Source: Collinsella sp. An7
GTDB lineage: Bacteria; Actinomycetota; Coriobacteriia; Coriobacteriales; Coriobacteriaceae
Direction: 5' to 3'
Length of the DNA: 64,000 nt
NCBI RefSeq assembly: GCF_002159335.1
Contig: NZ_NFHP01000007.1
Span: 1-64,000 of the forward strand
Below are positions 9,923-57,431 of this stretch, one piece after another; position 1 is the first letter of the stretch, and every line of letters begins with the position of its first letter. Made by a program: the position numbers and the translations under genes. The notes below the pieces were generated by a model, which searched no databases, was not told the DNA's origin, and was given only the letters and a program-made list of their open reading frames with translations.

Positions 9923-10074
9923 CTGTCAACTCGGGCCGGAAAACTGTGCAAGAATCGCGCCGGACCGAGTAGCCTAAAATACGACAACGCCCCGACCTGC
10001 GCTTTTTTGCACAGGTCGGGGCGTCTACGCAACGGGTCCCGAATCTTACACAGTTTTCCGTCCTGAGTTGACAG
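9923..10074. repeat. Large inverted-repeat element with nested hairpin (family LIR)
   Basis: The arms 9923-9957 and 10040-10074 are complementary at 31 of 35 positions. Inside them is a perfect 12-bp hairpin (9988-9999 with 10012-10023, CGCCCCGACCTG) whose loop contains TTTTTT. A GAGTAG box lies at 9967-9972, 9 nt inside the left arm, as in the elements at 15852, 37647 and 57273. The element lies between the convergent nth and the membrane protein gene at 10116, so the inner hairpin may also terminate transcription. The remaining 120 nt of the gap show nothing recognisable. Confidence 0.8.
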
Positions 10075-10115
10075 TGCCTCGCCAAACCGGGCCTCGCGCG
10101 CCTTCTTTGCCGCCG

Positions 10116-10718
10116 CTATGCCAGTCCAAGCCTCCAGGAGGCAAAGGCGCACACGGCGCAGATCACGATCACGACCAGCGCGCCCGAGATGTCCACCACC
10201 ACGCCGCCCACGCCGCGGCGCTCGCGCCACTCGGTGAGCTCCCCGGCCGCCGGGCGCCACAGCCGCCACAACAGCACCGCGCACCCCGCGAGGCCCACTA
10301 CGTTCTGCAGCATCAGCTCGGCGCAGATGAGACCGATGAGGTTGCCGAGGGCATACCCTCCGTCGCCCTCGGTGTAGTGGTGGTACGCGATTCGGATGAG
10401 CCACGCAACGAACGGCTGCGCCACTGCGGCGAGAAAGCTCACCACAAAACCCGGGTCGCCGGCAAACGCCTCCTCGAGGCTCACGCCTCCCAGGCCAACG
10501 TAGCCCCACACCGCAAAAGGAAAGATGACGAGCACCACCTCAACGGTGGTAACGATGCGGCGGGTAAGCGTCTCGCGCGCACTCTCGAGGTTGCGAGCCA
10601 CCCGGTCGCGGCGCAGGACCTCGCGCCCGGGCGCCTCGCTCTGCTCCTCTGCCACCCCTGACGTGCGGCGGGCCGCCGCGCGCTCGGCCGGGGTCATGTG
10701 CTTCTTGCGCTTGCCCAT
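10116..10718 (-). CDS. Hypothetical multi-pass membrane protein
   Basis: A 200-residue protein of unknown function. The N-terminus MGKRKKHMTPAERAAARR is strongly basic and cytoplasmic. Four hydrophobic segments follow (around VVLVIFPFAVWGYVGL, VVSFLAAVAQPFVAWLI, LIGLICAELMLQNVVGLAG and VVVDISGALVVIVICAVCAF). The ATG at 10718 has AAGGAGG 5-7 nt upstream, whereas longer in-frame starts do not. It lies 95 nt downstream of the NimA-like gene on the same strand and may be cotranscribed with it. I cannot link it to a known family. Confidence 0.75.
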   Translation of the reverse strand: MGKRKKHMTPAERAAARRTSGVAEEQSEAPGREVLRRDRVARNLESARETLTRRIVTTVEVVLVIFPFAVWGYVGLGGVSLEEAFAGDPGFVVSFLAAVAQPFVAWLIRIAYHHYTEGDGGYALGNLIGLICAELMLQNVVGLAGCAVLLWRLWRPAAGELTEWRERRGVGGVVVDISGALVVIVICAVCAFASWRLGLA

Positions 10719-10813
10719 CGTATCCTCCTTGCTCGACCGCGGGCGCATCCGCGTGTCGGCACTTGCCCAAAGGACGCGGTACGTCCAAGCCGTCTGGTTT
10801 CTCAGCAGCTCCC

Positions 10814-11350
10814 TCACGCGCACGGCGCCGCGGGACCCGTCTCGGGCAGCGGCAGCCGGTGCTCGCCGGGGCGCTCGTTATCGCGGAACTTCCCCGTCAT
10901 GTGCTCCACCTTGAGGCGGTAGACCGTCGTAGCGAGAACCGACTTGGGGTTGTAGGGAAAGTCCTCTTCGTGGTAGTGGCGCATCAGAATGTCGAGGCCC
11001 ACGGCGCGCTCCTCGTCGGGCAGAACCTCAATCACCCCGCGGCCGATGACGCTCCGGTACCCCATCGTGCAGGTCATGCGCTCGTCGTAGAAGATAAAGC
11101 GATGATCGCAGTCCACCTCAAAGCTCGCCCGCGGGTCCCGGGCGATGAGCTCGAGCTTCTCGCCCCGGCGCGCACTGTGGAAGTAGAGGTAGACCGTCCC
11201 GTCTTCCTCAACGTCCACGCCAAAGTTGAGCGGCACGATGTAGGGCGCGCCCGTATCGGGATCGTTGAGTGCAATGCGGCAGACGTCGCAATCGCGCAGG
11301 ATGGCGAGCTGCTGCTCGCGGTCGGTAATCTCGCGGTCGGTGCGAATCAT
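10814..11350 (-). CDS. Pyridoxamine 5'-phosphate oxidase-fold flavoprotein, NimA-like
   Basis: A 178-residue split-barrel protein of the Pyridox_ox_2 type, the group that includes 5-nitroimidazole reductase-like Nim proteins. Visible family segments are ILRDCDVCRIALNDPDTGAPYIVPLNFGVD, seen here in pieces such as CRIALND and YIVPLNFG, then YFHSARRGEKLELI and a terminal KVEHMTGK. The usual cofactor is FMN, or haem in some members. Whether this one confers nitroimidazole tolerance cannot be read from sequence. The ATG at 11350 follows GGGGGAGGA. Its promoter region contains the palindromic repeat at 11374-11453. Confidence 0.85.
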   Translation of the reverse strand: MIRTDREITDREQQLAILRDCDVCRIALNDPDTGAPYIVPLNFGVDVEEDGTVYLYFHSARRGEKLELIARDPRASFEVDCDHRFIFYDERMTCTMGYRSVIGRGVIEVLPDEERAVGLDILMRHYHEEDFPYNPKSVLATTVYRLKVEHMTGKFRDNERPGEHRLPLPETGPAAPCA

Positions 11351-11373
11351 GGGTCCTCCCCCTCTTATCGCGT

Positions 11374-11453
11374 CACAATGGGGACGGGTACATGTTGTGC
11401 CATCCGGCGGAACGCCGTGAAAAATGGCACAACATGTACCCGTCCCCATTGTG
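11374..11453. repeat. REP-like palindrome with GGGGACGGG core
   Basis: A perfect 30-bp inverted repeat (11374-11403 and 11424-11453) with a 20-nt spacer. Each arm carries the core ATGGGGACGGG. It occupies the divergent gap between the NimA-like gene and the GntR gene. Related copies or halves are at 3987, 4225, 21446, 22873, 39571 and 41371. This design is typical of short palindromes mobilised by REP-associated tyrosine transposases, but no such transposase is in the window. Confidence 0.85.
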
Positions 11454-11536
11454 CCACGCGACACCCTGCGGCACGTACCGTGTGCCAAGATGCGCTACAC
11501 TAGTTAATAGTTGTACGAACAAGAATGAGGTATCCC

Positions 11537-12262
11537 ATGCCCAAAGCGGTCTTTCGGGACATCTACCGCGACCTTAAAGAGCGTATCGAGCGCGGTGACT
11601 ATCCCTATCAGGCATTTCTTCCCTCCGAGGCGGAACTCACCGAGGCGTACGCCTGCTCGCGGAGCTCGGTGAGGCGTGCCCTCGGCGCCCTTGCGGCTGA
11701 CGGCTACGTGCAGTCGCAGCAGGGCAAGGGCGTGCGCGTGATCCGCAACCCGCAGCTCATCGACCAAGCGGGCTACAACGGCCTCGAGACCTTCAACGAG
11801 CTCGCGGCGCGCTGCGGCTTTACCCCGCACACCCATCTCATCACCCTCGACGAGGTGGAGGCCGACGAGAAGCTCGCCGAGATCACCGGCTTTGCGCCGG
11901 GCAGCCGCCTTGCCCACATTTTGCGCTCACGCTCGGCCGACGGCCTGCGCATCTCTACCGACGAGAGCTTTTATCTGGCAAGCGAGGTTCCCGGGCTCAC
12001 CCCCGAGGCCGTGCGCAACTCGGTCTACGCCTACCTCGAGGGCACACTCGGCATGAAGATCGTAACGAGCAAGCGCACCATCACCGTAGAGCCGGCCACC
12101 GAGGCGGACCGGCGCTACATGGACCTCGGCGACTTTAACGCTGTGGGCGTGATGCGCTCGCACACCTTTGACGCCGACGGCGTGATGATCGAGTACACCG
12201 AGTCGCGCCAATGCCCGGGGTTCTTTGCCTACCACGAGACGGCCATCCGCCCCGGGCACTAA
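11537..12262 (+). CDS. GntR-family regulator with UTRA effector domain (HutC/TreR type)
   Basis: A 241-residue regulator. Residues 1-70 are a winged helix (FLPSEAELTEAYACSRSSVRRAL, seen as separate motifs PSEAELTEAY and SRSSVRRAL). Residues about 85-235 are the UTRA small-molecule domain, ending RQCPGFFAYHETAI. TreR-like members sense sugar phosphates, but no sugar genes are adjacent, so the ligand is unknown. The ATG at 11537 is preferred to the ATG at 11525 because the latter overlaps the ribosome binding site GAGGT. Upstream, GTTGTACGAAC at about 11511-11521 is a near-palindrome that could be its operator. Its TAA stop lies in TCACTAAGG-like sequence at the edge of the repeat array. Confidence 0.9.
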   Translation: MPKAVFRDIYRDLKERIERGDYPYQAFLPSEAELTEAYACSRSSVRRALGALAADGYVQSQQGKGVRVIRNPQLIDQAGYNGLETFNELAARCGFTPHTHLITLDEVEADEKLAEITGFAPGSRLAHILRSRSADGLRISTDESFYLASEVPGLTPEAVRNSVYAYLEGTLGMKIVTSKRTITVEPATEADRRYMDLGDFNAVGVMRSHTFDADGVMIEYTESRQCPGFFAYHETAIRPGH

Positions 12263-12574
12263 GGTAAAGTACGATCCGCGGCAACGGCGAAGAGGCAGTG
12301 TCGCCGTTGCCGCAAAATGTCACCTAAGGCATCTCCAGAACAGTCCTATGTGACACAGTGCGGTAACCGTGGCTCCACGTCTCGCCGTTGCCGCAGATCG
12401 TCATCTAAGAAGGCTGCGGTACGGGCTTAGGTAACAATCTGCGGCAACGGCGACCAGCCCCTCTCACGGTTACCGCAGAATGTCACGTAAAACACTCCCA
12501 GCACGACCTTAGGTGACAAAGTGCGGAAATCGCTCGCAGCCCCGTCATTGCCGCAGACAGTCATTCAGGGAATC
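12261..12574. repeat. Tandem array of 81-82 nt stem-loop units
   Basis: Three full stem-loops begin at 12301, 12382 and 12464; a fourth left arm begins near 12545, and a right arm without its partner ends at 12290. Each unit has a left arm of the form CGCCGTTGCCGCA, 3 nt, TGTCACCTAAG, a loop of about 15 nt, and a right arm CTTAGGTGACA, 3 nt, TGCGGCAACGGCG. The loops differ completely while the arms vary in a compensated way. This fills the 412-nt gap between the GntR gene and the membrane protein at 12675. It is not a CRISPR: the repeats are themselves the hairpins and there are no uniform spacers. Confidence 0.85.
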
Positions 12575-12674
12575 GGCGGGTGCCCATAGGGCCTTACGGA
12601 CTCCATCGACGTGCAGCGGGGCGCCCGGCCACACATCCGCGTTTCCCAAAGAAGCAGCCCGCTGTCTGCTTGCC

Positions 12675-13127
12675 TTATACGATGGACTGGATGAGCTCGA
12701 TGACGTTGTGCGCAAGGTCGCCCAGCAGCTCGACCACCTCTTGGGGCGTGGCGCCGTTGAGGATGCAGGTGAGGGTGTAGCTCGCCACAAAGACTACGGC
12801 AAGCACCGCGGGGACAAGCACGATTGCCGCGATTGTCCGTACCACCGCGGCAAGCTTGCGCCGGCGTGTCCGCGCCCGATCGAAGGCAAGCTCGGTCTGG
12901 TAGCTCTCCTGCTCGAGCGAGTAGGAGCCATCGGGGCGCACCTCATCCGGCGCATCCTCTCGCGCTACCACGCGCTCACGGCGCGCCGCCTCATGCTCGC
13001 GATTCGCTTGTTGCTGCTGGGAATCCGCTTCTGGCGCACTCGGTTGCCACAGGGCTGCGGAAGAGCCGCCCTCCCCTGCCGCCGTCCGCCGCGCGCGCAT
13101 CTCCGCCGTCTCGACAAAAAGGTTCAT
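12675..13127 (-). CDS. Hypothetical single-pass membrane protein
   Basis: A 150-residue protein. Residues 1-85 are hydrophilic, with a Gln-rich run (SQQQQANREH) and many Ala, Arg and Glu. A basic stretch RARTRRRK precedes one strongly hydrophobic helix at about residues 95-122, and the tail NGATPQEVVELLGDLAHNVIELIQSIV is amphipathic. The ATG at 13127 has GGGGAGG upstream; longer in-frame starts do not. It lies downstream of the rubrerythrin terminator. I do not recognise a family. Confidence 0.72.
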   Translation of the reverse strand: MNLFVETAEMRARRTAAGEGGSSAALWQPSAPEADSQQQQANREHEAARRERVVAREDAPDEVRPDGSYSLEQESYQTELAFDRARTRRRKLAAVVRTIAAIVLVPAVLAVVFVASYTLTCILNGATPQEVVELLGDLAHNVIELIQSIV

Positions 13128-13206
13128 GACAAAACCTCCCCTGATCGGGGAGTGCGGAGACGGGTCTTTAGCATGACCGCTTGCCCGGCGCTTGTCAAAC
13201 GGCACG

Positions 13207-13259
13207 AAAAAGGCCGAGGGCAAACCGACGCGCGCAAAACGGACGGCTTGTCCTCGGCC
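13207..13259 (-). terminator. Terminator after rubrerythrin
   Basis: Read on the minus strand, GGCCGAGGACAA pairs with TTGCCCTCGGCC around a long loop and is followed by TTTTTC. A second GC hairpin (13271-13304, CGGGGGCGCTGCC type) precedes it without a T run. Confidence 0.75.
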
Positions 13260-13335
13260 CCTTCATATGCAACGGGGGCGCCGCCCGCAGGCAGCGCCCC
13301 CGTCTCGTACCGTGTGGCGGATAGCCTAGAGTCGC

Positions 13336-13875
13336 CTAGTAGTTGACGACCTGCTCCTCAAAGTAGCTCTGCGGATGGTTGCAGACCGGGCACATCTGCG
13401 GAGCGGTCGGGCCAACATGCAGGTGACCGCAGTTGAGGCACTTCCACACCTTGACGCCCTCGCGATCGAAGACCTCGCCCTTCTCCACGCGCTCGGCGAG
13501 CTTGAGGTAGCGCTCCTCGTGAGCCTTCTCAACGGCGCCCACGCCGCGGAACTTAGCCGCGATCTCCTTGAAGCCCTCGGCCTCGGCGGTCTCGGCAAAC
13601 TCGGCGTACATCGTGGTCCACTCGTAGTTCTCGCCCGCGGCGGCATCCTTGAGGTTGTCGAGGGTGCCCGGCACCGCACCGCCGTGCAGGTACTTGAACC
13701 AGAGCTTGGCGTGCTCGGACTCGTTCAGAGCGGTCTCCATAAAGATGTTCTGGATCTGAACGTAGCCGTCCTTCTTGGCCTGGGAGGCATAATAGCGATA
13801 CTTGGTGTGCGCCTGCGACTCGCCGGCAAACGCGGTCTCGAGGTTCTTCTTAGTCTGGGAGTTCTCAAAGTCCAT
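13336..13875 (-). CDS. rbr: Rubrerythrin
   Basis: A non-haem diiron peroxidase that protects anaerobes from peroxide. The 179-residue product has an N-terminal four-helix diiron domain with [36 protein letters not shown] and EKAHEERY, which supply the carboxylate and histidine ligands. It ends in a rubredoxin-like domain with two Cys pairs, CLNCGHLH and CPVCNHPQ. The ATG at 13875 (MDFENSQ) has AAAGGAA upstream. It appears monocistronic, with a terminator downstream. It supports an anaerobic lifestyle. Confidence 0.97.
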
Positions 13876-14031
13876 GGGTGTTCCTTTCCCTCTGTGAGAA
13901 CGATTCCGCACCGTTGTGCGCTTGTTTTTGCTTATACCCAATCCGCTTGGCAATTCCCCCAACGTACCGCGGAAGAATCACCCATCATCATTGCTACGTA
14001 TTTGATTGCAATTTTGCATGCGTGCGCGAGG

Positions 14032-14958
14032 TTAGGCGATGAGCCAGCGACCATCCCGCTCCGCGCAGAATCCCTCGCGAGTGAGCGCCCCGAGCAGCTC
14101 CTCTACCAGGCTGCGCTCCACAGGTTCACGCCCCGCCTGATGCTCAAACGCATCCAGGCCCGCCAGCACCTCATCAAACGAGAGGCCCGCCGGCTCGGCA
14201 CCGCGCGCGGCGAGGAGCATCCGCACGACCTCGGCGCGCTTTTGGCGACGCGACCCCTCAAAGCGCGACTGGCGTACGTGCCCGGCCGAGCGACGCGACG
14301 GGTTGGGCACGGTCTTTTTGAGGTACGCCCCGCAGTCGAGGAGCGCGTAGTACCAGTTGCGCGGCGTATCCTCCGCATCCTGCGGAACGGCATAGCGGCC
14401 GGCGGAATCATCGTCCGCGTCCCCAGCATCGGCCGAGCCCGCGGGAGCCGCCGGGCAGGCGGCCTCGATAAGCGGGATGAGCTCGCGGTCGGGCACGCCC
14501 GGCACATCGGGAAAGAAGTGATGCAAAAAGACGGTGCGCACGTTGGTCTCGAGATACACGCCCGGCAGATCAAAGGCAAAGGCGCGGATTCCCTGCGCCG
14601 TGGCGGGGCCGATGCCCGGCAGCGCCCGGAGCTCGGCAGCATCGTGCGGAAACACGCCGTCGTAGCGGTCCACAATTTGACGCGCCGCCTCGTGCAGGGC
14701 GAGCGCCCGCCGATTGTAGCCCATCCCCTGCCACGCCTCGAGTACATCGGCCGCAGAGGCAGCGGCAAGCGCCTCCACGCTCGGAAAACGTTCAAGCCAC
14801 GCAGGCATGCGCTGCTCAACGCGCGGCACCTGCGTCTGCTGGAGCATAACCTCAGAGAGCCAGATCTGATACGGGTCGCGCGTGCGGCGCCAGGGCAAAT
14901 CGCGATAGAGGCGCCGCCCCTCGGCGCGCATCAGGCTGCGGAAGGAGTCGAGTTCCAT
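14032..14958 (-). CDS. MutY-like HhH-GPD DNA glycosylase without iron-sulfur cluster
   Basis: A 308-residue homologue of A/G-specific adenine glycosylase. It keeps WLSEVMLQQTQV, with the glutamate (E36) that MutY uses for catalysis, and the helix-hairpin-helix LPGIGPATAQGI at about 113-124. Two departures are clear. The second catalytic carboxylate, Asp in the usual DGNVKR motif, is Glu137 here (LETNVRTVF). The four-cysteine [4Fe-4S] loop is absent: the region after NWYYALLDCGAYLKK has no Cys cluster. There is also no C-terminal NUDIX-like domain. Cluster-free MutY relatives with an ETN motif occur in other bacteria. The ATG at 14958 is 14 nt after the Rrf2 stop, so the two genes are probably one operon. 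Confidence 0.85.
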   Translation of the reverse strand: MELDSFRSLMRAEGRRLYRDLPWRRTRDPYQIWLSEVMLQQTQVPRVEQRMPAWLERFPSVEALAAASAADVLEAWQGMGYNRRALALHEAARQIVDRYDGVFPHDAAELRALPGIGPATAQGIRAFAFDLPGVYLETNVRTVFLHHFFPDVPGVPDRELIPLIEAACPAAPAGSADAGDADDDSAGRYAVPQDAEDTPRNWYYALLDCGAYLKKTVPNPSRRSAGHVRQSRFEGSRRQKRAEVVRMLLAARGAEPAGLSFDEVLAGLDAFEHQAGREPVERSLVEELLGALTREGFCAERDGRWLIA

Positions 14959-14972
14959 GAATGCTCGCGAGG

Positions 14973-15851: not shown

Positions 15852-16030
15852 CTTAACACCATGCTCGAAAAACTTCGCGTCAATGTAAGGATGGAATCGC
15901 GTCCTGCAGAGTAGAGCCAACAAGACATGCAGAAAACCTGCTGGTAGATGCGTTATCCATTTTTGGGCTACTTGGCAAAGCCCAATTCCATCCTTACATT
16001 GACGCGAAGTTTTATGCGAAGCGTGTTAAG
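15852..16030. repeat. Large inverted-repeat element with perfect 28-bp arms (family LIR)
   Basis: Arms 15870-15897 and 15985-16012 are perfectly complementary over 28 bp. An outer 8-bp match (CTTAACAC at 15852-15859, GTGTTAAG at 16023-16030) extends them across a mismatched bulge. Inside are a GAGTAG box at 15909-15914 and a hairpin GGGCT/AGCCC near 15965-15983. It sits in the 770-nt gap between Rrf2 and tRNA-Asp. The rest of that gap (15474-15851 and 16031-16239) contains no coding region that I can support. Confidence 0.8.
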
Positions 16031-16239
16031 CGAGGGCTTAGTCCCGCCAAAAATGGAAATTTCGGCATACTGTCCACTCTCGGAAGAGCCGCCTCGAGCT
16101 TCTGAGAAATTGGGGATGCAGTGACATGGTTTTCCGACGTCTAGCTGCTCTGATAGGAGTGCATCGGGCGCACGTTCCACCCTTTAACCCGCACAACCAC
16201 GAGCATTATTGACCATCGGAAAGGGCAGCAGAAGTCTTC

Positions 16240-16288: not shown

Positions 16289-16289
16289 A

Positions 16290-16367
<78 letters not shown>

Positions 16368-17174: not shown

Positions 17175-17891
17175 CTACAGGCTCAGCGCCTTCTTGAGCG
17201 GCACCACGCGACGGCGGCTCACGGGCACGCGCTCGTCGGTGCCGGTGATGCCCAGCTGGATGGCGCCGGAGGGCACGGTCTCCACGTCCTCCACGCAGGC
17301 GAGGTTGACGATATAACGGCGATGCACCCGGAAGAACCCGAAGTCGCCGAGCTTTGCCTCAAACTGCGCGAGCGAGGTGGTGGAGAGGAAGCGGTCGTCG
17401 TCGGTGTAGATGCAAGAGTAGTCGTCCTTGGCCATGATGTAGCGAATCTGATCGACGGGGATGAGCACCTTGCGGCCGCCCTTCTCCACGGGAATCCGCT
17501 CGATGCTCGACTTGGTCTCGGCCTGCGGCTTAACATGCGCCGCCACCTTGGCAAGCGCGCGCTCGAGACGCTCCTCCTCCACCGGCTTGAGCAGATAATC
17601 GACGGCGTCGACGTCAAACGCCTCCACGGCGTGATCGCTATAGGCGGTCACAAAGACCACCGCGGGCGGGTTCTTGAGCTTGTGCAGCGCCTCGGCCAGC
17701 TGCAAACCCGAGGCACTCGGCATCGAAATATCCAAGAAGACGACGTCGACTCGATTCTCCATGAGCTTCTCGATGGCAGAGCGCACGCTCGACGCCTCGA
17801 TGATAGAGGCAACCTTGCCCGTCTGCTCCAGCAGAAAACGCAGCTCGGAGCGAGCAGGGGCCTCATCGTCGACAATCATGGCACGCAGCAT
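17175..17891 (-). CDS. LytTR-family response regulator
   Basis: A 238-residue regulator with a receiver domain (residues 1-120) and a C-terminal LytTR DNA-binding domain (about 135-238). The acidic pocket is VDDE at 7-10, the phosphoacceptor is Asp54 in VVFLDISMP, and the conserved lysine is in DYLLKPV. The LytTR part shows RYIMAKDDYSCIYT and FFRVHRRYIVNL. It is the partner of the histidine kinase directly upstream (113-nt gap) and resembles LytS/LytT, BtsS/BtsR and YpdA/YpdB pairs, which sense cell-surface state or small carboxylates. The ATG has AAGGGA upstream. The target genes are not evident here. Confidence 0.93.
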   Translation of the reverse strand: MLRAMIVDDEAPARSELRFLLEQTGKVASIIEASSVRSAIEKLMENRVDVVFLDISMPSASGLQLAEALHKLKNPPAVVFVTAYSDHAVEAFDVDAVDYLLKPVEEERLERALAKVAAHVKPQAETKSSIERIPVEKGGRKVLIPVDQIRYIMAKDDYSCIYTDDDRFLSTTSLAQFEAKLGDFGFFRVHRRYIVNLACVEDVETVPSGAIQLGITGTDERVPVSRRRVVPLKKALSL

Positions 17892-21445: not shown

Positions 21446-21528
21446 CCATGGGTCATTTGGGGACGTGTTCCATCTGACCCATTTTGCGGCAATGAGTCAG
21501 ATGGAACACGTCCCCAAATGACCCATGG
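21446..21528. repeat. REP-like palindrome with GGGGACGTG core
   Basis: A perfect 33-bp inverted repeat (21446-21478 and 21496-21528) with a 17-nt spacer. It starts 3 nt after the stop codon of the MFS gene, read on the minus strand. The arm TCAGATGGAACACGTCCCC recurs as a half-copy at about 39613-39632. Confidence 0.85.
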
Positions 21529-22782: not shown

Positions 22783-22872
22783 CGCGTCCCCTCTCGTTGG
22801 TACATACCGGTTCATGGTACGTCAACAGAGGTAAAGCGCGCATCAGGTTTTGGTCAGGGAGGGCGCGGCTCA

Positions 22873-22949
22873 TTCTGGGACGGGGTTGTTTTGAGCCATG
22901 GACGGCGCCGCGGGCGCCCGCCGTGGCTCAAAACAACCCCGTCCCAGAA
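22873..22949. repeat. REP-like palindrome with GGGACGGGG core
   Basis: Arms 22873-22901 and 22921-22949 pair at 28 of 29 positions around a GC-rich tip (GGCGCC...GGCGCC type). Each arm contains GGGACGGGGTTGTTTTGAG. It lies between the MFS gene start and the stop of the phospholipase-like gene. A half-copy is at 39575-39598. Confidence 0.85.
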
Positions 22950-22956
22950 CGAACCG

Positions 22957-31223: not shown

Positions 31224-31383
31224 AAAACATTTCGGCCCCCGATGTGAGTGTATCTTTTAGAACTCGCGAGCACACCGACTCCAAAACGCGATTCTGGACA
31301 TCGAATCCCCAGTTGAGCGCTTTATCTAGCCAAAGTGCTACTCGCCCTCTCCAAAAGATCCACTCACATCGGGGGTTGAGTTT
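31224..31383. repeat. Large inverted-repeat element (family LIR, core subgroup)
   Basis: Core arms 31236-31261 and 31350-31375 pair at 24 of 26 positions; they carry CCCCCGATGTGAGTG. The interior holds CCAGTTGAGCGCTTTATCT at 31309-31327 and a paired inner stem (GCGAG near 31266, CTCGC near 31341). The same arms and interior occur in inverted orientation at 37647, and the interior again at 57273. It lies between the RlmK-like gene and kup. Confidence 0.85.
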
Positions 31384-35317: not shown

Positions 35318-37588
35318 ATGGTCGTCGCCATCATATCGTTCATCGCCGCCGTAGCGAGCATCGCGCTCGGCGTGTTCGCCAACCGGCGCTTTGCCGCCCT
35401 GCCTGCCGAGGAGGCCGGAGCACCCGCGGGCAATGCTGACGCGCCTGCCAATCGCACCAAGGCGCTCCCCTTCCGCACGAGCGGCATCGTCTGGGGCGTC
35501 GTCTTTACCGCCCTCCAGGTCTTTATCGGTGTGTGGGCGGCACTCGGCCTTGTGCAGAACGACGTCCTCTCGTCGCTCATCATGAACCTCGTGATCACCG
35601 CCTGCGCCGTGGCCTGCTTTACCCGCCCCCACCTCACCGCGCGCCTGCGCGCCCTCACTGCGGAGGGCGGACGCTTCCCCCATCCGCTCGCAGCCAGCAT
35701 CATCGCCCTCGTGCTCGCGGGCGTCTTTGCCACGTTTGGGCTCGAGATTCCCAGCAACCACGACATCACCTGGATGTACCCACTCTGCCTGCTGCTCGAG
35801 TTTGCGCTCATCACCGTCGCGATGGCCGGGCTCTTCTTTATCTCGCAGCGCCGCGGCGGCGCGAGCGCCTTCCTCGCGCTCGCGCTCTGCATGCTCGGCA
35901 TCGCCGAGTACTTCGTGATCCTCTTCAAGTCGATGCCCATCCAGCCCGGCGACCTCTTTGCCCTCAGCACGGCCGCCGCGGTAAGCGCCGGCTACACCTA
36001 CACGCTCTCGGCCTACTGCCTCTACGGCATCGCGCTCGCCGCCGTGGCCGCGCTCCTCTGCCTCGCCGCCGGCGCGTGGCGCCCCGAGCGCGCCCAGCGC
36101 AGCCGCCGCGGCCTGGTAATCAACCTCATCGTGGGCGTGCTCTGCCTTGCGGGGATCACCGCGCACGTCACGCTCATCGACTACTACAACACCCTCGGCA
36201 TCCAGATCTACACCTGGCGCCCGCTCGAGAGCTACTACCGCCAGGGCTACCTGCCCTCGTTTATCTCGAGCGCGCAGACCATCATCCCGCCCAAGCCCAA
36301 AAACTACTCCACCGGCACCGCCGAAAAGCTGCTCGACGAGTACGTTGCCACCTACGACGAGCAGGATGCCGCCAACGAGGCGCGCACCCAGGCCACCGCG
36401 CAGTTTGACGAGGAAAAGCCCACGGTCATCGCCATCATGAACGAGACCTTCTCCGACCTCTCCATCTACCAGAACCTCCACGCCGGCTACGAGGGCCCCA
36501 CGTTCTTTAAGAGCATCTCCGACGCCGTGGCGCGCGGCACGCTCTACGTCTCGGCGTACGGCGGCGGCACGTGCAATACCGAGTTTGAGTTCCTCACCGG
36601 CAACTCCATGGCCTACCTCGGCAACGGCGTGTACCCCTACTCCACCTACAACCTCACGCAGACCAAGAACCTCGCCCAGCAGTTCAGCGACCTGGGCTAC
36701 GCCACCACGGCCATGCACCCCAACCACGGCACCAACTGGAACCGCGAGAACGTCTACCGCGACTTTGGGTTTGACAACTTCCTCACCATCAACGACTTTG
36801 CCGATGCCGACCGTCTGCGCGGCATGGTGACCGACGAGGCGACCTACGACAAAATCCTCGACCTGCTGAACGAGAACAGCGATCCGCAGTTTATCTTTGA
36901 CGTGACGATGCAGAACCACTCCGGCTACGAGACGGGGCTTCTGCCGTACGACAAGCAGGTCAACTATCTCGTCGACGGCGTGTCCGACCCCGAGGTCAAC
37001 GAGTACCTTGCGCTCATCCAGGAATCCGACCGCGCGCTCGAGGAGTTCCTGAGCAAGCTTGAGAAGCTTGACCGCAAGGTTGTGCTGGTGTTCTTTGGCG
37101 ACCACCAGCCGTTCTTCCCCGACACGTACAACGACGCCTGGTTTACCAACGAGGACGAGGCCGTGCACGCCGAGCGCCTGTGGCAGACCGACTACGTGAT
37201 CTGGGCAAACTACGACGTGGCGGGCTCGAGCCAGACGAGCGAGCAGGTCGACACCTCCACCAATTACCTCGGCTCGATGCTGCTCGAGCTCATCGGGGCG
37301 CCGCTCACCGACTACCAGAAGGCGCAGATTGCGGCACGCACGGAGATGCCGGCCATCAACACGACCGGCTACTGCGACGCCGACGGCACGTGGTTCCTCA
37401 CGGGCGAGAAGATCGATGCGCCCGAGGGCTCCGCCGCGGAGCGCGCAGCGACCACGCGCTACGACCTCTCGATGATCCAGTACTTTGAGCTCTTTGGACA
37501 CGGAGGCGGCATCTTTACCAAGCACCAGCAAGACGCCGCCAACGAGACCGACCCCAACCTCGCCCCGGGAACGACGAAGATCAAGTAA
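35318..37588 (+). CDS. LTA synthase-family phosphoglycerol transferase
   Basis: A 756-residue membrane enzyme of the alkaline-phosphatase superfamily. About seven hydrophobic segments fill the first 300 residues, and an extracellular sulfatase-like domain begins near KPTVIAIMNETFSDLSI, whose Glu and Thr would be the metal ligand and catalytic nucleophile. The Asp-His pair in FFGDHQPFFP and the NHGTN and MQNHSGYE segments complete the active site. LtaS and related proteins transfer glycerol phosphate from phosphatidylglycerol to teichoic acids or glycans. The ATG at 35318 has GGAGGG upstream. The actual polymer made here is unknown. Confidence 0.9.
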   Translation: MVVAIISFIAAVASIALGVFANRRFAALPAEEAGAPAGNADAPANRTKALPFRTSGIVWGVVFTALQVFIGVWAALGLVQNDVLSSLIMNLVITACAVACFTRPHLTARLRALTAEGGRFPHPLAASIIALVLAGVFATFGLEIPSNHDITWMYPLCLLLEFALITVAMAGLFFISQRRGGASAFLALALCMLGIAEYFVILFKSMPIQPGDLFALSTAAAVSAGYTYTLSAYCLYGIALAAVAALLCLAAGAWRPERAQRSRRGLVINLIVGVLCLAGITAHVTLIDYYNTLGIQIYTWRPLESYYRQGYLPSFISSAQTIIPPKPKNYSTGTAEKLLDEYVATYDEQDAANEARTQATAQFDEEKPTVIAIMNETFSDLSIYQNLHAGYEGPTFFKSISDAVARGTLYVSAYGGGTCNTEFEFLTGNSMAYLGNGVYPYSTYNLTQTKNLAQQFSDLGYATTAMHPNHGTNWNRENVYRDFGFDNFLTINDFADADRLRGMVTDEATYDKILDLLNENSDPQFIFDVTMQNHSGYETGLLPYDKQVNYLVDGVSDPEVNEYLALIQESDRALEEFLSKLEKLDRKVVLVFFGDHQPFFPDTYNDAWFTNEDEAVHAERLWQTDYVIWANYDVAGSSQTSEQVDTSTNYLGSMLLELIGAPLTDYQKAQIAARTEMPAINTTGYCDADGTWFLTGEKIDAPEGSAAERAATTRYDLSMIQYFELFGHGGGIFTKHQQDAANETDPNLAPGTTKIK

Positions 37589-37646
37589 GACAGCCTGTCC
37601 GGGCGCCCCTCGCGGTGGGGGCGCCCGGCCACGAGGGTCGCTGGAT

Positions 37647-37802
37647 AAACTCGACCCCCGATGTGAGCGCATCTTTTAGAATGGCTCGGTAGTACTCCAT
37701 TGAGATAAAGTGCTCAACTGGTCTTTTGCCGAGAATTTCGCGCGGATTTACCCGGTCTACTCGGGGATTCCAAAAGATGCACTCACATCGGGGGTCGAGT
37801 TT
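37647..37802. repeat. Large inverted-repeat element (family LIR, core subgroup, inverted)
   Basis: Arms 37647-37680 and 37769-37802 pair at 32 of 34 positions and share AAACTCGACCCCCGATGTGAG. Read on the minus strand the interior has GAGTAGACCGG (complement at 37757-37762 and beyond), GCAAAAG and CCAGTTGAGCACTTTATCT (37703-37721). It is a second copy of the element at 31224 in the opposite orientation, lying between convergent genes. Confidence 0.9.
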
Positions 37803-37825
37803 TTGCGCTAGGCGCGACTCCGTGG

Positions 37826-38596
37826 CTACGCCCGGCCCCGAAGTCGCGCAGCAAGTCGGTCAAGGAGAGCCGGGTCGCAGCCCGCCTGCTCCACAAGGTA
37901 GCGGCGCGCGCCGCCGTAGCGCCCGTGCAGGTGGTCGATGGTGCGCTCCATCTCGCGGGGATTCGCCTCAAAGAGGCAACGGGGCACGCGACGGCGCAGC
38001 GCCACCGACACGGCTGCGCGCTGCAGCCGCAAGAAGCCGCCCATATAGTTTTGGGTGACGGCGTAGTCGGCAACGATGTTGGCGCGCGGCACGCCGGCAA
38101 GCTCGAGCAGCAGCATGCAGATCACGCCGGTGCGGTCCTTGCCCACGCGGCAATGAAAGAGCACGCAGCCCTCCGGCACGTCGAGCGCCGCCATGACGCG
38201 GCCCACGTTTGGGGCGTCGCCGTCGAGGAGGTCGCGATAGCTTGCGAACATGCTCTCGGGCAAGAGCCCCGCAAAGCCGTTGGAGTTGAGCTGGTCCATA
38301 AGGGGGATGTGCGCGTACGACACTCCGGGGTGCGGGCGGCGGGCGTACGGGTCGGACAAAAAGCGCAGCTCAAAGTTGCTTCGCACATCGACCACCCGCA
38401 CGAGACCGTACGCCTCAAGCTCATCGCGGTCGCGCAGGGTGAGGCGGGTGAGCGAACCGGACCGGAGAAAGACGCCGCGCGCGGTGGTGCCGCTCCGCCC
38501 CTGCTCGTCCATAAAGGGAAAGCCGCCCAGGTCGCGCGTGTTGCGCACGCCGACGAGCGGCAGCGGCTGGGACGTATAGGGCTTGGGCGCGGGCAT
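37826..38596 (-). CDS. Tyrosine/serine protein phosphatase (Y_phosphatase3 family)
   Basis: A 256-residue phosphatase. It starts with VGVRNTRDLGGFPF, typical of the PtpB/LipA-like group, has VVDVRSNFE, and carries the P-loop HCRVGKDRTGV, a CX5R active site with the extra lysine and aspartate of lipid-and-protein phosphatases. Substrates in this family include phosphotyrosine, phosphoserine and phosphoinositides. The ATG at 38596 follows GGAGGGG; an in-frame ATG at 38635 with AAGG is the alternative and adds 13 residues. The 400 nt upstream to 38995 contain only GC-rich sequence with a short direct repeat (GGCGCCGCGGC, twice near 38750 and 38775). Confidence 0.87.
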   Translation of the reverse strand: MPAPKPYTSQPLPLVGVRNTRDLGGFPFMDEQGRSGTTARGVFLRSGSLTRLTLRDRDELEAYGLVRVVDVRSNFELRFLSDPYARRPHPGVSYAHIPLMDQLNSNGFAGLLPESMFASYRDLLDGDAPNVGRVMAALDVPEGCVLFHCRVGKDRTGVICMLLLELAGVPRANIVADYAVTQNYMGGFLRLQRAAVSVALRRRVPRCLFEANPREMERTIDHLHGRYGGARRYLVEQAGCDPALLDRLAARLRGRA

Positions 38597-38995
38597 GATG
38601 CGGACCCCTCCGGCGGGGGAAGTCAGGGTAACCATATGATGTACCTTACCCGATACGCCGTCCGTCTTGCCGAATGCTGACCGAACGCTTACGCAATACA
38701 TGAGCGGGGCGCCGCAGTTGGACATCGCCGGGTGGGGCCCGTTGGCCGCAAGGCGCCGCGGCTGGACATGCGCGCAGGGCGCCGCGGCCGGACGTCACCG
38801 AGATCCCGCTGGCAGCAGGGCGCTACAGCGAGGCCGATCGCCATACTGCGGGACGCCCCCACACAGCCCCGCCCGGCCATGGAGAGCCCGCGGGCCAGTG
38901 CACGGACGCGGCCCGCGGGCTCGACGCCCACATGCAACATGGGATGCACTCGGACGCATCGGCCGCTACCCTACGTGCGGGCTCGGCAGCGGCCC

Positions 38996-39517
38996 TTACG
39001 CCAGGGCCTCGCGGGCAGCTGCGACGATACGCGCCAGATCGGCCTCGTCGGGGTGCGCGAGCGCCGCGTCGAAGTTGTCGATCATACCCCGGATGCGCTC
39101 ATCGCCTGGATGCTCCGCGAGCATCGCCTCGTAGCGGGCGCGCACGCCGGCGCCCATCTTGCCTTGGCACATCGCGCCGCCCAGGTAGGTTGCGTCCTCG
39201 GGCAGGTGGGCGCGCACGCGGTCGAGAATCTGGGCAAAGTACGCCTCGCTCCCGCCAAAGCCCGCCGTGCCAAAGAGAAAGACACGCTTACCGCCGAGCC
39301 GCTCGAGCACCGCGGCAAGGTCGGGCGCACAGTCGCCCTTGTCGGTCCAGAACCCGGCGAGCACGGTGTCCGCCCCGCCGAGCTCCGTCTCGGCAACCTC
39401 CTCGGGCGCAAACGGGCCGGCCGCTGCCACGCCGGCACCGGCCAGCTCGCTCGCCAACGCATCTGCCACGAGCCGTGTGTTACCACTCTTGCTGCTCACC
39501 ACGATCAAGCACGTCAT
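38996..39517 (-). CDS. Flavodoxin-family protein, BilS-like
   Basis: A 173-residue flavodoxin with the FMN phosphate loop SSKSGNTRLVADAL. Distinctive segments are GFWTDKGDCAPDL, VFLFGTAGFGGSEAYF and AMCQGKMGAGVRARYEAML. From memory these resemble the flavodoxins called BilS that accompany bilirubin reductase (BilR) in gut bacteria. No BilR-like gene is in the window, so that role is only a suggestion. The ATG at 39517 has AGGAGG upstream. It lies downstream of the ABC permease on the same strand, separated by a chimeric palindrome remnant. Confidence 0.82.
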   Translation of the reverse strand: MTCLIVVSSKSGNTRLVADALASELAGAGVAAAGPFAPEEVAETELGGADTVLAGFWTDKGDCAPDLAAVLERLGGKRVFLFGTAGFGGSEAYFAQILDRVRAHLPEDATYLGGAMCQGKMGAGVRARYEAMLAEHPGDERIRGMIDNFDAALAHPDEADLARIVAAAREALA

Positions 39518-53215: not shown

Positions 53216-53269
53216 AGGTGCTCCTCGCCTCGCCGCATTCGTTCATTCGATGCTATCATTACGCGTTAC

Positions 53270-53356
53270 GGAGAGATGGCAGAGCGGTTGAATGCGGCGG
53301 TCTTGAAAACCGTTAGGCGCGTGAGCGTCTCGAGGGTTCGAATCCCTCTCTCTCCG
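53270..53356 (+). tRNA. tRNA-Ser(TGA)
   Basis: 87 nt: acceptor GGAGAGA/TCTCTCC, anticodon loop CUUGAAA (anticodon UGA), a long class II variable arm, T loop TTCGAAT and discriminator G. CCA is not encoded. It lies divergently 54 nt from the TadA fusion gene. A TATCAT box at about 53253 may be its -10 element. Confidence 0.97.
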
Positions 53357-53611
53357 CCCGTTTCTTATCGCAACGCAATAGCCTGGGGCATAAGTCCCAC
53401 TTGAACGGTGCCGCCCCCACACCGCATGCCGCGAGCCGGCCGGCACCCCTGCGGCACGCCAGCACGCTGTCCCCGTCGCCCGCGGCCCAACCGAGCCATA
53501 TCCCACTCGCGACAAGGCTGCGCCGGCGTGCCCAACAAGAACCACCGCCAAACAGCCCGGGAGAGCCCGCTGCCCTGGCATCCGCAAGGCCTTTGGGCAA
53601 AACGAATTGAC

Positions 53612-53782
53612 TCTGTGGCCAAAAACGGCGTCGAAAAAGTATTTTGGTCATCCTACAGGGCCCCACCGCATGCCATCGACCATCTAAACGAGGACCCAGC
53701 GCCTCCCCAAGGCGCTAACGACCGGTCAGCCGCCGATCTTACAGGCGCATTTTACTTTTTCGAGGCCGTTTTTGGCCACAGA
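53612..53782. repeat. Large inverted-repeat element between tRNA-Ser and ilvE
   Basis: Arms 53612-53641 and 53753-53782 pair at 29 of 30 positions (TCTGTGGCCAAAAACGGC core). About 111 nt are enclosed, including a hairpin AGCGCCT/AGGCGCT near 53697-53717. It has the size and architecture of the LIR elements but lacks their GAGTAG and CCAGTTGAGC boxes. It occupies part of a 748-nt gap (53357-54104) in which I see no supported gene. Confidence 0.75.
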
Positions 53783-54104
53783 CGCCTTCTTTTTTTCCTT
53801 CGGCGTCAGCCCCGGGCTTTCAGCAAGCTGCCCAGCCCGATAAATGAGGGCCACGCCATTGCCGCAACGGCCCACCGTACCCGACCTCCGCAGCAATCTG
53901 CCGTTTGCGTCACGACCAAGCGCCCGCTCGTCATCCCGCGAACGCTCGCCACCGCTCTTTCCCCTTCCCCGTCCGCCAAAAGAGAGGAGCAGGCAGGGAG
54001 GGGTCGAGCCCGCCGCACCCCGCAGCGCGTTGTACGCAAAAAGCGGGACGCGCCTGCGCAGCACGTCCCGCTCATCAACCAATCAGCTTGTCCAAACGCC
54101 AAAC

Positions 54105-55151
54105 CTAGCAAATCTTGACGACCCAGCCCTCCGGGCCCTCGATCTCGCCGGACTGGATGCCGGTCAGGGTCTCACGGAGCTTCTGCATCACGGGGCCGAC
54201 GTGCTCCATGCCGCCCTTGCCAAAGACGATCTCCTCGTCGCCCTTGACGACCTTGCCCACCGGGCTGATAACCGCCGCGGTGCCGCACATGCCGCACTCG
54301 ACAAACTCGTGCATCTCGACCTCCGAGAACGGCACGGGGCGCTCCACGACCTTCATGCCGAGCATGTGCTCGGCCACGTACACCAGGCTGCGGCGCGTGA
54401 TCGACGGCAGGATGGAGTCGGTGTGCGACTTGGGCACCACGAGCGTGCCCTCGTGGTCGACAAACAGGAAGTTCGCCCCGCCGGACTCCTCAACGTAGGT
54501 GTGGGTCTCGGGGTCGAGAAACATGTTGTCGGCAAAGCCCTCGGCGTGCGCCTGCACGCTCGGGTAGAGGCTCATGGCGTAGTTGAGGCCGGCCTTGATG
54601 TTGCCAGTGCCGTGCGGTGCAGCACGGTCGAACTCGGGAACCTTCACCGCCACGGGCTTAACGCCGCCCGAGTAGTACGGGCCCACAGGCGTCACGAGGA
54701 TGCGGAACTGGTACTCGTCGGCCGGGGCAACGCCGATGACCTCGCCGGTTGCCACCATAAAGGGGCGCACGTAGAGCGTGGCGCCCGAGCCAAACGGCGG
54801 CACCCAGGCCTCGTTGGCCTTGACGACCATCTTAACGGCCTCGATGAACTTGTCCTCAGGGAAGGGCGGCATCACGATGCGGCGCGCGGAGTCGGCCATG
54901 CGGCTGGCGTTGAGGTCGGGGCGGAAGCAGACAATGTCGCCCGACTCGGTGGTGTAGGCCTTGAGGCCCTCAAAGACCTCCTGGCAGTAATGGAAGATGC
55001 CGGCGCACTCGGAGAGCGTGAGGGTGTGGTCGGTCGTGAGGCCGCCCTCCTCCCAAGCGCCGTTCTTGTAGTTGCAGACGTAGCTGTAATCGGTCGGCTG
55101 ATAGGCAAACCCGAGGTTGCCCCAATCGATATCCTTCTTCTCCACTGCCAT
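54105..55151 (-). CDS. ilvE: Branched-chain amino acid aminotransferase
   Basis: A 348-residue fold-type IV PLP enzyme that interconverts Val, Leu and Ile with their 2-oxo acids. The PLP lysine is in GTGNIKAGLNYA. Other markers are CQEVFEGLKAY, RPDLNASRM, EESGGANFLFV and ECGMCGTAAVISPVG. The length fits the BCAT-II group. The ATG at 55151 has AAAGGAG upstream; longer in-frame starts are unsupported. The 325-nt upstream gap contains a TACAAT box at about 55236 on the minus strand and GC-rich hairpins, but no clear attenuator or T-box. Confidence 0.96.
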   Translation of the reverse strand: MAVEKKDIDWGNLGFAYQPTDYSYVCNYKNGAWEEGGLTTDHTLTLSECAGIFHYCQEVFEGLKAYTTESGDIVCFRPDLNASRMADSARRIVMPPFPEDKFIEAVKMVVKANEAWVPPFGSGATLYVRPFMVATGEVIGVAPADEYQFRILVTPVGPYYSGGVKPVAVKVPEFDRAAPHGTGNIKAGLNYAMSLYPSVQAHAEGFADNMFLDPETHTYVEESGGANFLFVDHEGTLVVPKSHTDSILPSITRRSLVYVAEHMLGMKVVERPVPFSEVEMHEFVECGMCGTAAVISPVGKVVKGDEEIVFGKGGMEHVGPVMQKLRETLTGIQSGEIEGPEGWVVKIC

Positions 55152-55476
55152 GACGTGCTCCTTTGCAAGCCGAAAACACACGTTGCACGCCGTCCGGGGC
55201 CGTACCCCGCGGGGTGCGCGTATAACCTGCGTCCGATTGTACCCCCGGGCGGCAAAGACCGGGGCAATGTAACCGCAGCGTAACGTTTTGTGGGCGGGCG
55301 AGGGTAGGCTTGCGTCGTGGCTGGGCGACGGTGGGGCGTGGCCTGCCGCGCGGCCGCATGCTTGGGCGACGGTGGCGAGCCCGGAGTCGCCGAAAGGCGA
55401 CATACTCGAGCAACGGTGCCGGGCCAGAGGGCCGGCGCCACCGGAACGATCGCCGCTACTTGCTGGGGCCTACGCC

Positions 55477-57066
55477 CTACCCCACTGCCTCGAGCGTTGC
55501 CAAAAGCGCCTGGTGGTCGGTGCCCGAGATGGTCGCCGTGGCGAGCTCGCTCACCACGATGCCCGAGTCCTTGGCGTAGACGATATGATCGATCTCGACC
55601 AGCGGCGGAATCACGGTGTTGGACGGATAGGTCATGTGAAAGCCCTCGCCCGCCGTGGCACCGGCGTCCACAAACGCCGAGCCCAGCAGCTCGCGGAAGC
55701 GCGCATGGTCCCACGTGGAGTTAAAGTCGCCCATGATGAGGTAGGTATGGTCGTAGCCCGAGAGCGACCCGATGGTCGAGAGCCCCTCCTCCCACAGGTC
55801 TTGCGCGCCGCGCACCGGCGAGTTGGGGTGAACGCTCACTACGCGGACGGTCGCGCTGCCCACCTGGATGGTCGCGGCGGGCATGGAGCTCGTCTCGATG
55901 GGCAACAGATTCTGCGAGATGTTGCTCATGGGGGCGAGCGTCCAGATGCCGTTGCGGCCGCCGTTGTTGACGCCCGAGGCCCGGTCGGAGATCACGTGGT
56001 AGGGCAACAGTTCATCGATACCCGCCGCCGAGAGCTCCGAGGCAAAGCTGTCCGAGAGCTCCTGCAGGCAGAGCACCTCCACGTGCTGCTCGCGCACAAG
56101 CTGCACGATCTCAGCCGCAGAGGCGCGGCCGGCGAGCGTGTTGAGCGTCATGATGCGCGCCGCCCCGTCATCGACGGAGGCGGTGGCAACGGCCGTCTGG
56201 GCCGCGGCGGAGACCCCGGCGGTGGGCAAGAAATACCCCGCGTGCCACCAACCCATAAGACCGAGTGCGGCAACGGTGAACACGAGCAGCACCCGGCGGC
56301 GCCATAGGAAGGCGAGCACCAGGCACACAACCAGCGGGATAAAGAGCAGCGGCACAAAGGAGACGAGCTCGGGCACCGCGCGCCCGTTGGCGAGGCTCGC
56401 CGGCAGGCAGCGGAGCGCCATGAACCCGGCGCACACGATGAGCGCAAGCCACAGGAACATGCTGAGGCAGCCGTGCTTGGCAGGCTTTGGCGCACGCGGG
56501 GCGCGCTCGCGCCGGGAACGCGGCGGCGTGCCGTCTCCGCCGCCGGCGGAAGCGGTTGACGGGACTGCCGAAGTTGCCGCTCCCCGCGCGCCGGAGCGCC
56601 TAAACGCGCTCCCGCGCGACTGCCGGGCGGCGGTGACGCCATAGCTGGGCACCGTGGAGCCTGCGGGAGTGCGAGCACGCTCGGCACTTCGGGCAGAGCC
56701 GGCCCACGCCATAGGGCGCATGACCGTCTGATCGGATGCCGCACGGTCGGTTACCGGCCGGTACGCCGGCGGTTCGGGAGCGGCAGACCCCGCAAAGGGA
56801 TCGTGCGGCTGCGCTGCCCGACCGCCCGCCGGCGCGCCATCCTGCGGTCCTGCCGCAGGGACATACCCCGCCGGCACACCGGAGCGTCGGGCATCCGGCC
56901 GTGCCGCGCGGGGCGCGGCATACGCCGGTGCCGCATGCTGCCCACCAGCCTGTGCTGCCACGTCCCCCACACCAGCCGGGTCATTCTGGGCTCGCCACGC
57001 ATCGTCGGAGAGGGGTTCCCACTGCGCGTTGTTATACGAGGGGTCGTTATACTCCCGCTGCGCCAT
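55477..57066 (-). CDS. Membrane-anchored endonuclease/exonuclease/phosphatase-family protein
   Basis: A 529-residue protein. Residues 1-200 are a disordered Pro/Ala/Arg region. Three helices follow (about 205-290). Residues about 295-529 are a DNase-I-fold domain outside the membrane. Its catalytic motifs are IMTLNTLAG, LCLQELSD, SVHPNSP, MGDFNSTW and SGTDHQALL. Proteins with this layout are called endonucleases but could hydrolyse nucleic acids or phospholipids. The ATG at 57066 has AAAGGAGG upstream. It seems monocistronic. Confidence 0.88.
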   Translation of the reverse strand: MAQREYNDPSYNNAQWEPLSDDAWRAQNDPAGVGDVAAQAGGQHAAPAYAAPRAARPDARRSGVPAGYVPAAGPQDGAPAGGRAAQPHDPFAGSAAPEPPAYRPVTDRAASDQTVMRPMAWAGSARSAERARTPAGSTVPSYGVTAARQSRGSAFRRSGARGAATSAVPSTASAGGGDGTPPRSRRERAPRAPKPAKHGCLSMFLWLALIVCAGFMALRCLPASLANGRAVPELVSFVPLLFIPLVVCLVLAFLWRRRVLLVFTVAALGLMGWWHAGYFLPTAGVSAAAQTAVATASVDDGAARIMTLNTLAGRASAAEIVQLVREQHVEVLCLQELSDSFASELSAAGIDELLPYHVISDRASGVNNGGRNGIWTLAPMSNISQNLLPIETSSMPAATIQVGSATVRVVSVHPNSPVRGAQDLWEEGLSTIGSLSGYDHTYLIMGDFNSTWDHARFRELLGSAFVDAGATAGEGFHMTYPSNTVIPPLVEIDHIVYAKDSGIVVSELATATISGTDHQALLATLEAVG

Positions 57067-57272
57067 GGCCCCTCCTTTCCGTCGCTGCTCGGGCCTGGCA
57101 AGGTCTCCATCGTACCCAACCCGTCGCACCTCCACGGCAACCCGACACCTTCGACACAAGGGCTCAACGCGATATGAGGCCGTGGTAGAGACCGCGTGAA
57201 TACGGCGGCTGCACGCCGGCCCGTCGCGGGAGGCCGTCGGGGGCCCAGCCCGTGGGTTTCCCGCACCAGATT

Positions 57273-57431
57273 GAAAACTCGACCCCTAAGTGAGAGCCTT
57301 ATTTTGGAAATGGCGAGTAGACCGCCGAAATCAGCCCCAAAACCTCAGCAAAAGGCCAGTTGAGCACTTTAGTATGATACAGTGTACTCGACAGGCTCAA
57401 AAACAGGCTCTCACTTAAGGGTCGAGTTTTC
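57273..57431. repeat. Large inverted-repeat element (family LIR, core interior with diverged arms)
   Basis: Arms 57273-57299 and 57405-57431 pair at 26 of 27 positions. Only the outer AAACTCGACCCC is shared with the elements at 31224 and 37647; the inner arm is different (TAAGTGAGAGCC) yet still self-complementary. The interior is conserved: GAGTAGACCG at 57315, GCAAAAG, CCAGTTGAGCACTTTA from 57356, and TACTCG at about 57385 pairing with CGAGTA. Confidence 0.9.

Follow-up and report, generated by a model that had tools for sequence, protein, structure and literature searches.

Correia elements (NEMIS), ERIC, RUP and similar repeats that resemble miniature inverted-repeat transposable elements (MITEs) are intergenic palindromes of 100-160 bp that occur in many copies. 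The same description applies to a family of repeats found in Collinsella sp. An7, five suspected members of which lie in a stretch of 64,000 nucleotides (hereafter the window; contig NZ_NFHP01000007.1, positions 1 to 64,000, forward strand, assembly GCF_002159335.1). Unlike the arms of the Correia, ERIC and RUP repeats, those of the Collinsella family differ between lineages around one conserved core, and their flanks are phased with the helical repeat; to our knowledge, phased flanks have not been reported for Correia elements, ERIC or RUP. The REP/BIME sequences, BIME-2 of E. coli among them, are likewise palindromic, scattered through intergenic DNA and different from lineage to lineage, and gyrase sites are described as over-represented in BIME-2 (PMC6379681). 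REPs, however, are presented as palindromes of 20-40 bp (PMC3733652), in contrast to elements of ~155 bp with arms of 26-31 bp and a conserved core. Moreover, the REP arrangement of a 20-40 nt hairpin after GTAG was not found in the present family, whose AGTA(G) boxes, internal to the arms, vary between copies and are followed by a hairpin that pairs imperfectly. Published accounts also include a survey of REPs (PMC12306157) and 250 palindromic candidate RNAs from human microbiomes (PMC8040213). The strong gyrase site of phage Mu is another instance of DNA described as phased for gyrase wrapping (PMC11626157), but it is a single viral site. In the open-access literature searched, no description was found of such palindromic or MITE-type repeats in Collinsella or Coriobacteria.

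The dispersed repeat family consists of real intergenic DNA elements. The reference copy occupies positions 37647..37802 of the plus strand (E 1.9e-39 with the general covariance model R2, see below). Its left arm, AAACTCGACCCCCGATGTGAGCGCATCTTTT, delimited by an inverted-repeat scan and by the alignment of copies, lies at 37647..37677 and its right arm at 37772..37802. Between them are located the core (37688..37728), containing the inverted CTyyA/TAAAG boxes, GCTCAACTGG and CTTTTG and conserved across arm types and species; an inner spacer (37720..37765) with the GGTCTACTC box at its end, in which G+C content is phased at the level of the family; and a CTACTC box (37757..37762), recognized in the copy alignment as the partner of the GAGTAG-type box. 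Among the copies of the host genome, the arm consensus is AAACTCGACCCCCGATGTGAGTGyATCTTTT, from which single copies depart. After the arm come a first variable spacer and the segments AGTA(G)CACTyyAnTnnnnTAAAGyGCTCAACTGG and nnTTTTG; a second variable spacer (~24 nt), CGGTCTACTC and a short spacer lead on to the arm in inverted form. The arms measure 26-31 bp and are ~84-120 nt apart. Mean pairwise identity among the host copies was 0.86-0.88 in the arms, 0.66 in the core and 0.72 in the CGGTCTACTC box. The corresponding value of 0.37-0.38 in the spacers indicates that these are nearly without sequence memory, though their lengths are almost fixed.

A BLASTN search of the host genome (18 contigs) with the 37647 copy gave 21 near-full-length matches (the query included, the other 20 at 70-79% identity), together with partial ones. 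In total, 27 close host copies could be aligned over ~156 bp, and three variants were also found. A covariance model built from the 27 aligned copies (R1) gave each of them an E of at most 1.2e-27, which is expected because they were its training set; the three variants scored less well (C12:76887, E 9.5e-18; C1:289966, 4.3e-7; C14:124729, 5.2e-4). One left arm (L031) stands alone at C1:382988, and the other arm matches form pairs of ~156 bp. In four host copies (L015, L024, L034 and L035, the copy at 57275 among them), both arms are of the subtype CTCGACCCTTAAGTGAGAGCCT.

The most informative feature of the family, which was invisible in the original prediction made from the window alone, is the phasing of G+C content in register with the arms. 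Outside the arms, most copies have no sequence in common, yet G+C-rich and A+T-rich segments alternate every 10.8 bp, locked to the arm. In the reference copy the respective flanks are 37587..37641 and 37808..37862 (no strand assigned), the pattern being that of the family and not of a single copy. For 52 host flanks from 26 of the 27 copies (L011 dropped), the power at a period of 10.8 was 0.310 (left side 0.331, right side 0.292), compared with a maximum of 0.055 among 1000 nulls. Most (48 out of 52) of these flanks were in phase, the phase having been fitted on the same flanks, versus 20 of 52 at -260 to -206. In other species, which carry other arms, the period was 10.9 (124 flanks from 64 loci, including orthologous copies and thus not all independent), and 11.0 when genomes G060 and G055 were removed (85 flanks, 42 loci); none of 2000 nulls reached either value. 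The phasing in these species is placed at the same distance from the GTGAG-equivalent position of the arm as in the host. Single species were noisier: close to the arm, the best period was 10.9 in G055 and 9.0 in G060, and at greater distance 10.1 and 10.5, respectively. Little phasing was seen beside simple hairpins from the same sequences: the 66 flanks of 34 hairpins had a power of 0.012, compared with a null mean of 0.004 and a null maximum of 0.025.

The phasing also extends from the right arm inward, toward the core, with a period of 10.8 in the host (16 sites) and 11.0 in the other species (59 sites), which none of 1000 nulls reached in either case. Part of this inner signal derives from the conserved TTTTG and GGTCTACTC boxes, but phasing is also present at the intervening positions, which are not conserved. 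The outer and inner patterns are mirrored about one point of the right arm (79 sites, r 0.82), and the 95% range of 200 bootstraps of that point is a single 0.5-bp step; estimated from the family and not from a single copy, the centre of symmetry lies between 37787 and 37788 in the reference element. The outer amplitude peaks at 22-59 bp from this centre and has fallen by more than half at 54-75 bp.

These dimensions invite comparison with DNA gyrase. The E. coli gyrase motif is described as a 36-bp centre between two 47-bp regions with a G+C periodicity of 10.75 bp, and its sites as concentrated downstream of transcribed operons (PMC6379681). Periodicities of 10-11 bp in G+C are reported for the gyrases of three species (PMC12324340), and the periodic pattern is tied in published work to wrapping on the C-terminal domains of GyrA (PMC12393610, PMC11626157). 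In the Collinsella family the period, the symmetry about a centre and, roughly, the extent agree with the published motif. Only the right arm approximates the layout of two ~47-bp regions, ~10.75-bp phasing and a 36-bp centre, the phased regions having no sharp limits and the centre being a fixed arm sequence; at the left arm, the outer half alone is present.

The conservation of the elements in place was analyzed in nine groups of orthologous copies in sister species, each member being compared with the first of its group; some of the far flank is coding. Differences were found at 24 of 676 positions in the arms (3.6%) and 27 of 433 in the core (6.2%), versus 98 of 831 in the inner spacers (11.8%), 145 of 1425 in the outer flanks at 5-60 bp (10.2%) and 156 of 1557 further out (10.0%); the edges differed at 16 of 128. 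The low divergence of the arms and core relative to the spacers and flanks indicates that they are maintained where they sit, which is a poor fit to dead transposon remnants. In addition, no longer element with the ends of the host copies was found in the host genome (a draft, searched for the host arm type only). The original view that the elements reflect something other than simple transposon decay is thereby borne out.

In terms of distribution, R1 detected elements in seven of the eight further species of the genus; the core of these is that of the host copies, and their arms are different. A host copy used as BLASTN query had no match in 39 relatives. A covariance model had been suggested as a check on the family, and a general model, R2, was built from 35 elements. 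With it, members were detected at E<=1e-4 in 49 of 65 genomes of the taxonomic family. Eight of these carriers belong to the genus, all of them sources of model sequences, and the remaining finds, in 41 of 56 genomes of other genera, are independent. An order-wide search with R2 matched 44 of 247 genomes at E<=1e-6, five of them outside the taxonomic family. Five loci from four of these five genomes (G036 not included) scored E 8.7e-11 or better with the same model, which provides no independent proof. Among four extra-family alignments inspected, the GAGTAG box was present in three and the arms were different in all four. The repeats are frequent within a single taxonomic family and occur only here and there among the other genomes of the order, with a core that is shared and arms of ~26-31 bp that differ by lineage. 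The core pattern was not found in viral contigs. A scan of genome contigs for the host arm gave one match, in a Treponema record, which was taken as chance; the host's own records were possibly excluded from that collection.

In the host genome, the placement of the copies suggests a bias toward convergent genes, which is restricted to this genome. Such placement was observed for 13 of 21 callable copies, versus 24 of 89 gene pairs in the background (p 0.003); under the laxer criteria of an initial analysis, the counts were 13 of 24 copies and 8 of 44 window pairs. Genes were predicted with a simple caller, and 6 host loci and 13 others either could not be called or lay within a gene prediction; the set of other species excludes orthologous repeats. 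The background, consisting of the window and eight partly matching stretches of relatives, is small, partly repeated and not independent.

Taken as a whole, the family is read here as DNA that stays in place and is bound by protein in duplex form, most likely as a dock for gyrase, a reading to which we assign a probability of roughly 0.45. According to this proposal, a long-lived intergenic element would be bound as double-stranded DNA, its inverted arms being read by sequence and its core by a second factor. The ~50 bp on either side of the right arm, and the DNA outside the left arm, would be helically phased for wrapping by a protein, most likely DNA gyrase. The element would then be a chromosomal gyrase dock in intergenic DNA, with a role comparable to that of E. 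coli BIME-2 or the strong gyrase site of phage Mu, and its effect may be the local control of supercoiling.

Several observations weigh against this proposal. The central preferences of gyrase (-4G, -2A, +1G) are not found at the centre (score -0.10 in the host, -0.07 in the others), and their best offset is 7 bp from the arm centre. The arms are far more sequence-specific than gyrase needs. On the inner, core-facing side of the left arm, the best period is 8.8-8.9, and the power at 10.75 bp is small (0.050 in the host, reached by 61 of 1000 nulls; 0.064 in the others, where the null maximum is 0.040 and none reach). Weak outer phasing persists to ~107 bp, and the inner phasing keeps its amplitude over the 72 bp to the core, so that the 47-bp limit is not sharp. 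Between orthologues, the phased flanks diverge as much as the far flanks, and changes between strong and weak base pairs (S/W) are not depleted in them (0.91 and 0.85 of differences); no sign that S/W class is under selection there was seen among orthologues. Sixteen of the 65 genomes of the taxonomic family, G006 included, have no R2 match at E<=1e-4, and the enrichment between convergent genes is absent in other species (14 of 42, p 0.29). Finally, a G+C template scan of phage Mu ranked other sites above the annotated gyrase cut (17879/17880). Position 17877 had a template z of 2.2-2.8, in phase only if the annotated cut is that of the minus strand; with a plus-strand reading, the opposite phase fits about equally (z 3.3 at 17882). 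The published preferences differ only slightly between the strands (minus 3, plus 2 of 6), and what we take to be the gyrase consensus favours the minus strand equally slightly (10 versus 9 of 13). pSC101, scanned likewise, gave no decisive signal.

The original prediction had taken the pairing of the arms to be the conserved feature and had argued for a structure acted on as RNA, a cruciform or single-stranded DNA. Selection of the elements for pairing, as a structured RNA or a hairpin of cruciform or single-stranded DNA, is considered very improbable, and the evidence weighs toward duplex DNA that is read by sequence and probably wrapped by protein. Most arm positions are paired, and a comparison of arm types shows changes on both sides in 24 of 29 arm pairs (whole-structure covariation 0.355, versus 0.155 shuffled). 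Any inverted pair of binding sites, however, gives the same result when arm types differ, and here the two arms of each type have a common sequence. A small excess was also present in the 27 host rows, subtype included, in covariation (0.111 versus 0.092, reached by 2 of 500 shuffles) and in paired cells (82.6% versus 81.3%, 1 of 500), with 15 pairs changed on both sides versus 15.1 in shuffles. A matching change in both arms was observed once among orthologues, in L056 relative to L043 and L055. Within the main arm type (22 of the 27 host rows, after removal of the near-duplicate L011 and of the four copies with the subtype), there was no compensatory excess: 594 of 637 cells were paired, versus 589 in shuffles (reached by 146 of 2000), and pairing double changes numbered 8, versus 6.5 expected (574 of 2000). 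Of the one-sided changes, 20 keep pairing and 40 break pairs. The changed arm sequence of the copy at 57275, originally singled out because it still matches, is real but is no lone compensated case, since its subtype occurs in four host copies. The inner GAGTA/TACTC stem that had also been proposed fares no better, with 61% of its cells pairing and a change on both sides in one of six pairs, and the middle positions of the core hairpin are mispaired in 16 and 11 of 35 sequences. Rfam gave 13 matches at E<=1 in the window, none of which overlaps the five elements, and a phased duplex composition outside the arms would have no role in an RNA. RNA or cruciform pairing was rejected for want of support within the main arm type, and we conclude that the feature kept is the arm sequence more than pairing as such.

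Two further alternatives were considered. It is unlikely, in our estimation, that the elements are MITE-like and non-autonomous, the arms being the terminal repeats that belong to a transposase now lost or not seen, the core a site for the transposase or a host factor, and the phasing a reflection of the transposition complex and of target preference. The inverted arms and the many copies would suit such an origin, and flank phasing could be a target preference. In the stretches of eight sister genomes that match the 37647 locus, no R2-detectable element was present (E<=10), and seven of the eight lacked one at the 31228 locus as well; together with the absence of the host arm type from 39 relatives, this indicates that the copies probably multiplied in the host lineage. 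Two duplications are recent, L009/L011 sharing 250 bp at 98% and L118/L119 sharing 213 bp at 92%. The duplicated units, however, differ in their limits (flanks of ~0+91 and 44+14 bp), and the mapping of target-site duplications, which had been proposed as a check, disclosed no clear one: the best of 7436 length and offset combinations comprised 2 bases, at 0.50 identity versus 0.23. No clean empty site was found at the two window loci (flanks unalignable, the intergenic DNA being too diverged) or at L042, L011 and L119 (partly judged from match tables). In the draft host genome no longer element with such ends was found, arms and core alike are maintained in place between species, the core inside the element is retained whatever the arm type, and phasing is seen in the inner spacers as well. 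Quite unlikely is a duplex wrapped by something other than gyrase (a nucleoprotein complex of HU, Lrp or recombinase type), in which a DNA-binding protein particular to the lineage would occupy the arms and core. The same phasing data would accord with it, as would the missing central preferences of gyrase and the high specificity of the arms. The period, the arm-centred symmetry and the rough extent nevertheless match gyrase, and no gene recurs beside most elements: among 289 predicted proteins of element loci, no general neighbour was found. The largest cluster of neighbours spans 8 loci, which reduce to 5 independent places once orthologues are merged, and among the clusters listed ten cover 3. 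The longest member of the largest cluster is presumably an ABC ATPase.

A Y1 transposase (RAYT) was also considered as a partner, in view of the published association of REPs with Y1/HuH transposases (PMC8266576), and ruled out by the mismatched distributions of the two. The Y1 family PF01797 was detected in 52 of 64 genomes (E<=1e-5). It was not found in several element-rich genomes, the carriers lacking a match being G060, G062, G056, G001 and G008 (the last a fragmented draft), and it was present in G006, G013 and G024, in which R2 finds no element.

Inverted-repeat arms were found at all five sites originally reported in the window (at 9923, 15851, 31236, 37647 and 57270), and their assignment to one family holds for some of them. 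The elements at 31228-31383 (minus strand, R2 E 3.4e-33), 37647-37802 and 57275-57429 (minus strand, E 2.1e-34; AAGTGAGAGCC arm subtype, 4 of 27 copies) are full members with a common CCAGTTGAGC-A/G-CTTTA core and GAGTAG-type boxes, and the second is inverted relative to the other two, as had been stated. The site at 9927..10070 (plus strand) is a diverged member with arms, GAGTAG and GTCTAC boxes and a terminator-like hairpin replacing the core; it was matched by R2 (E 6.3e-8) and not detected by R1 at E<=10. For the palindrome at 15852..16030 (no strand assigned), membership is unsupported: it was undetected by R1 and R2 at E<=10, and its likeness to the family is one of layout only, with GAGTAG/CTACTT boxes within long arms. 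No plasmid match was found for window positions 36000-39000.

Other palindromes and paired sites were observed in the course of the analysis. Short, tight palindromes occur in the window at 21446-21528, 22866-22956, 11369-11458 and 57503-57564, several with GGGGACGTGTTC or GGGACGGG-like arms; these may be repeats of the REP type that belong to the only Y1 transposase match, located at G000:C12:176535. A large palindrome at 53612-53782, with 30-bp arms 111 nt apart, lies ~250 bp from a tRNA-Ser gene and was undetected by R2, and two nested inverted repeats with arms of 25 and 28 bp are located at 12347-12489. At the 37647 locus of sister species G007 and G004 (L124, L126), there are palindromes with unrelated arms (TCAGTTATTCAACAATCTA; GCCGCCCTCGTTTCCCTCG) that R2 does not recognize. 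In G003 (L129) and G002 (L042), elements with different arms occupy the same place after the same gene, and no homology was found beyond the element. In the right flanks of L009 and L011, the duplicated 250-bp unit stops after a terminator-like hairpin outside the arm. Second, weaker model matches ~40-150 bp from another element were recorded at L041, L049, L050 (1200-1353), L087 (1243-1399) and L100 (1322-1463), and some sites may thus hold pairs of elements.

A broader and more tentative proposal is that the order possesses gyrase docks throughout, in which a conserved core read by a further factor, lineage-changing inverted arms and DNA kept in phase on both sides would together manage supercoiling between transcription units. 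If the gyrase reading is true, bacteria outside Enterobacteriaceae would own repeated, hard-wired gyrase sites, and the placement of gyrase on chromosomes would become a testable question. A changing arm beside a slower core implies that a co-evolving arm-binding protein should exist, and such a protein can be sought. Even with a wrapper other than gyrase, helically phased composition would be an unusual mark of a repeat family, and one that ordinary motif searches miss.

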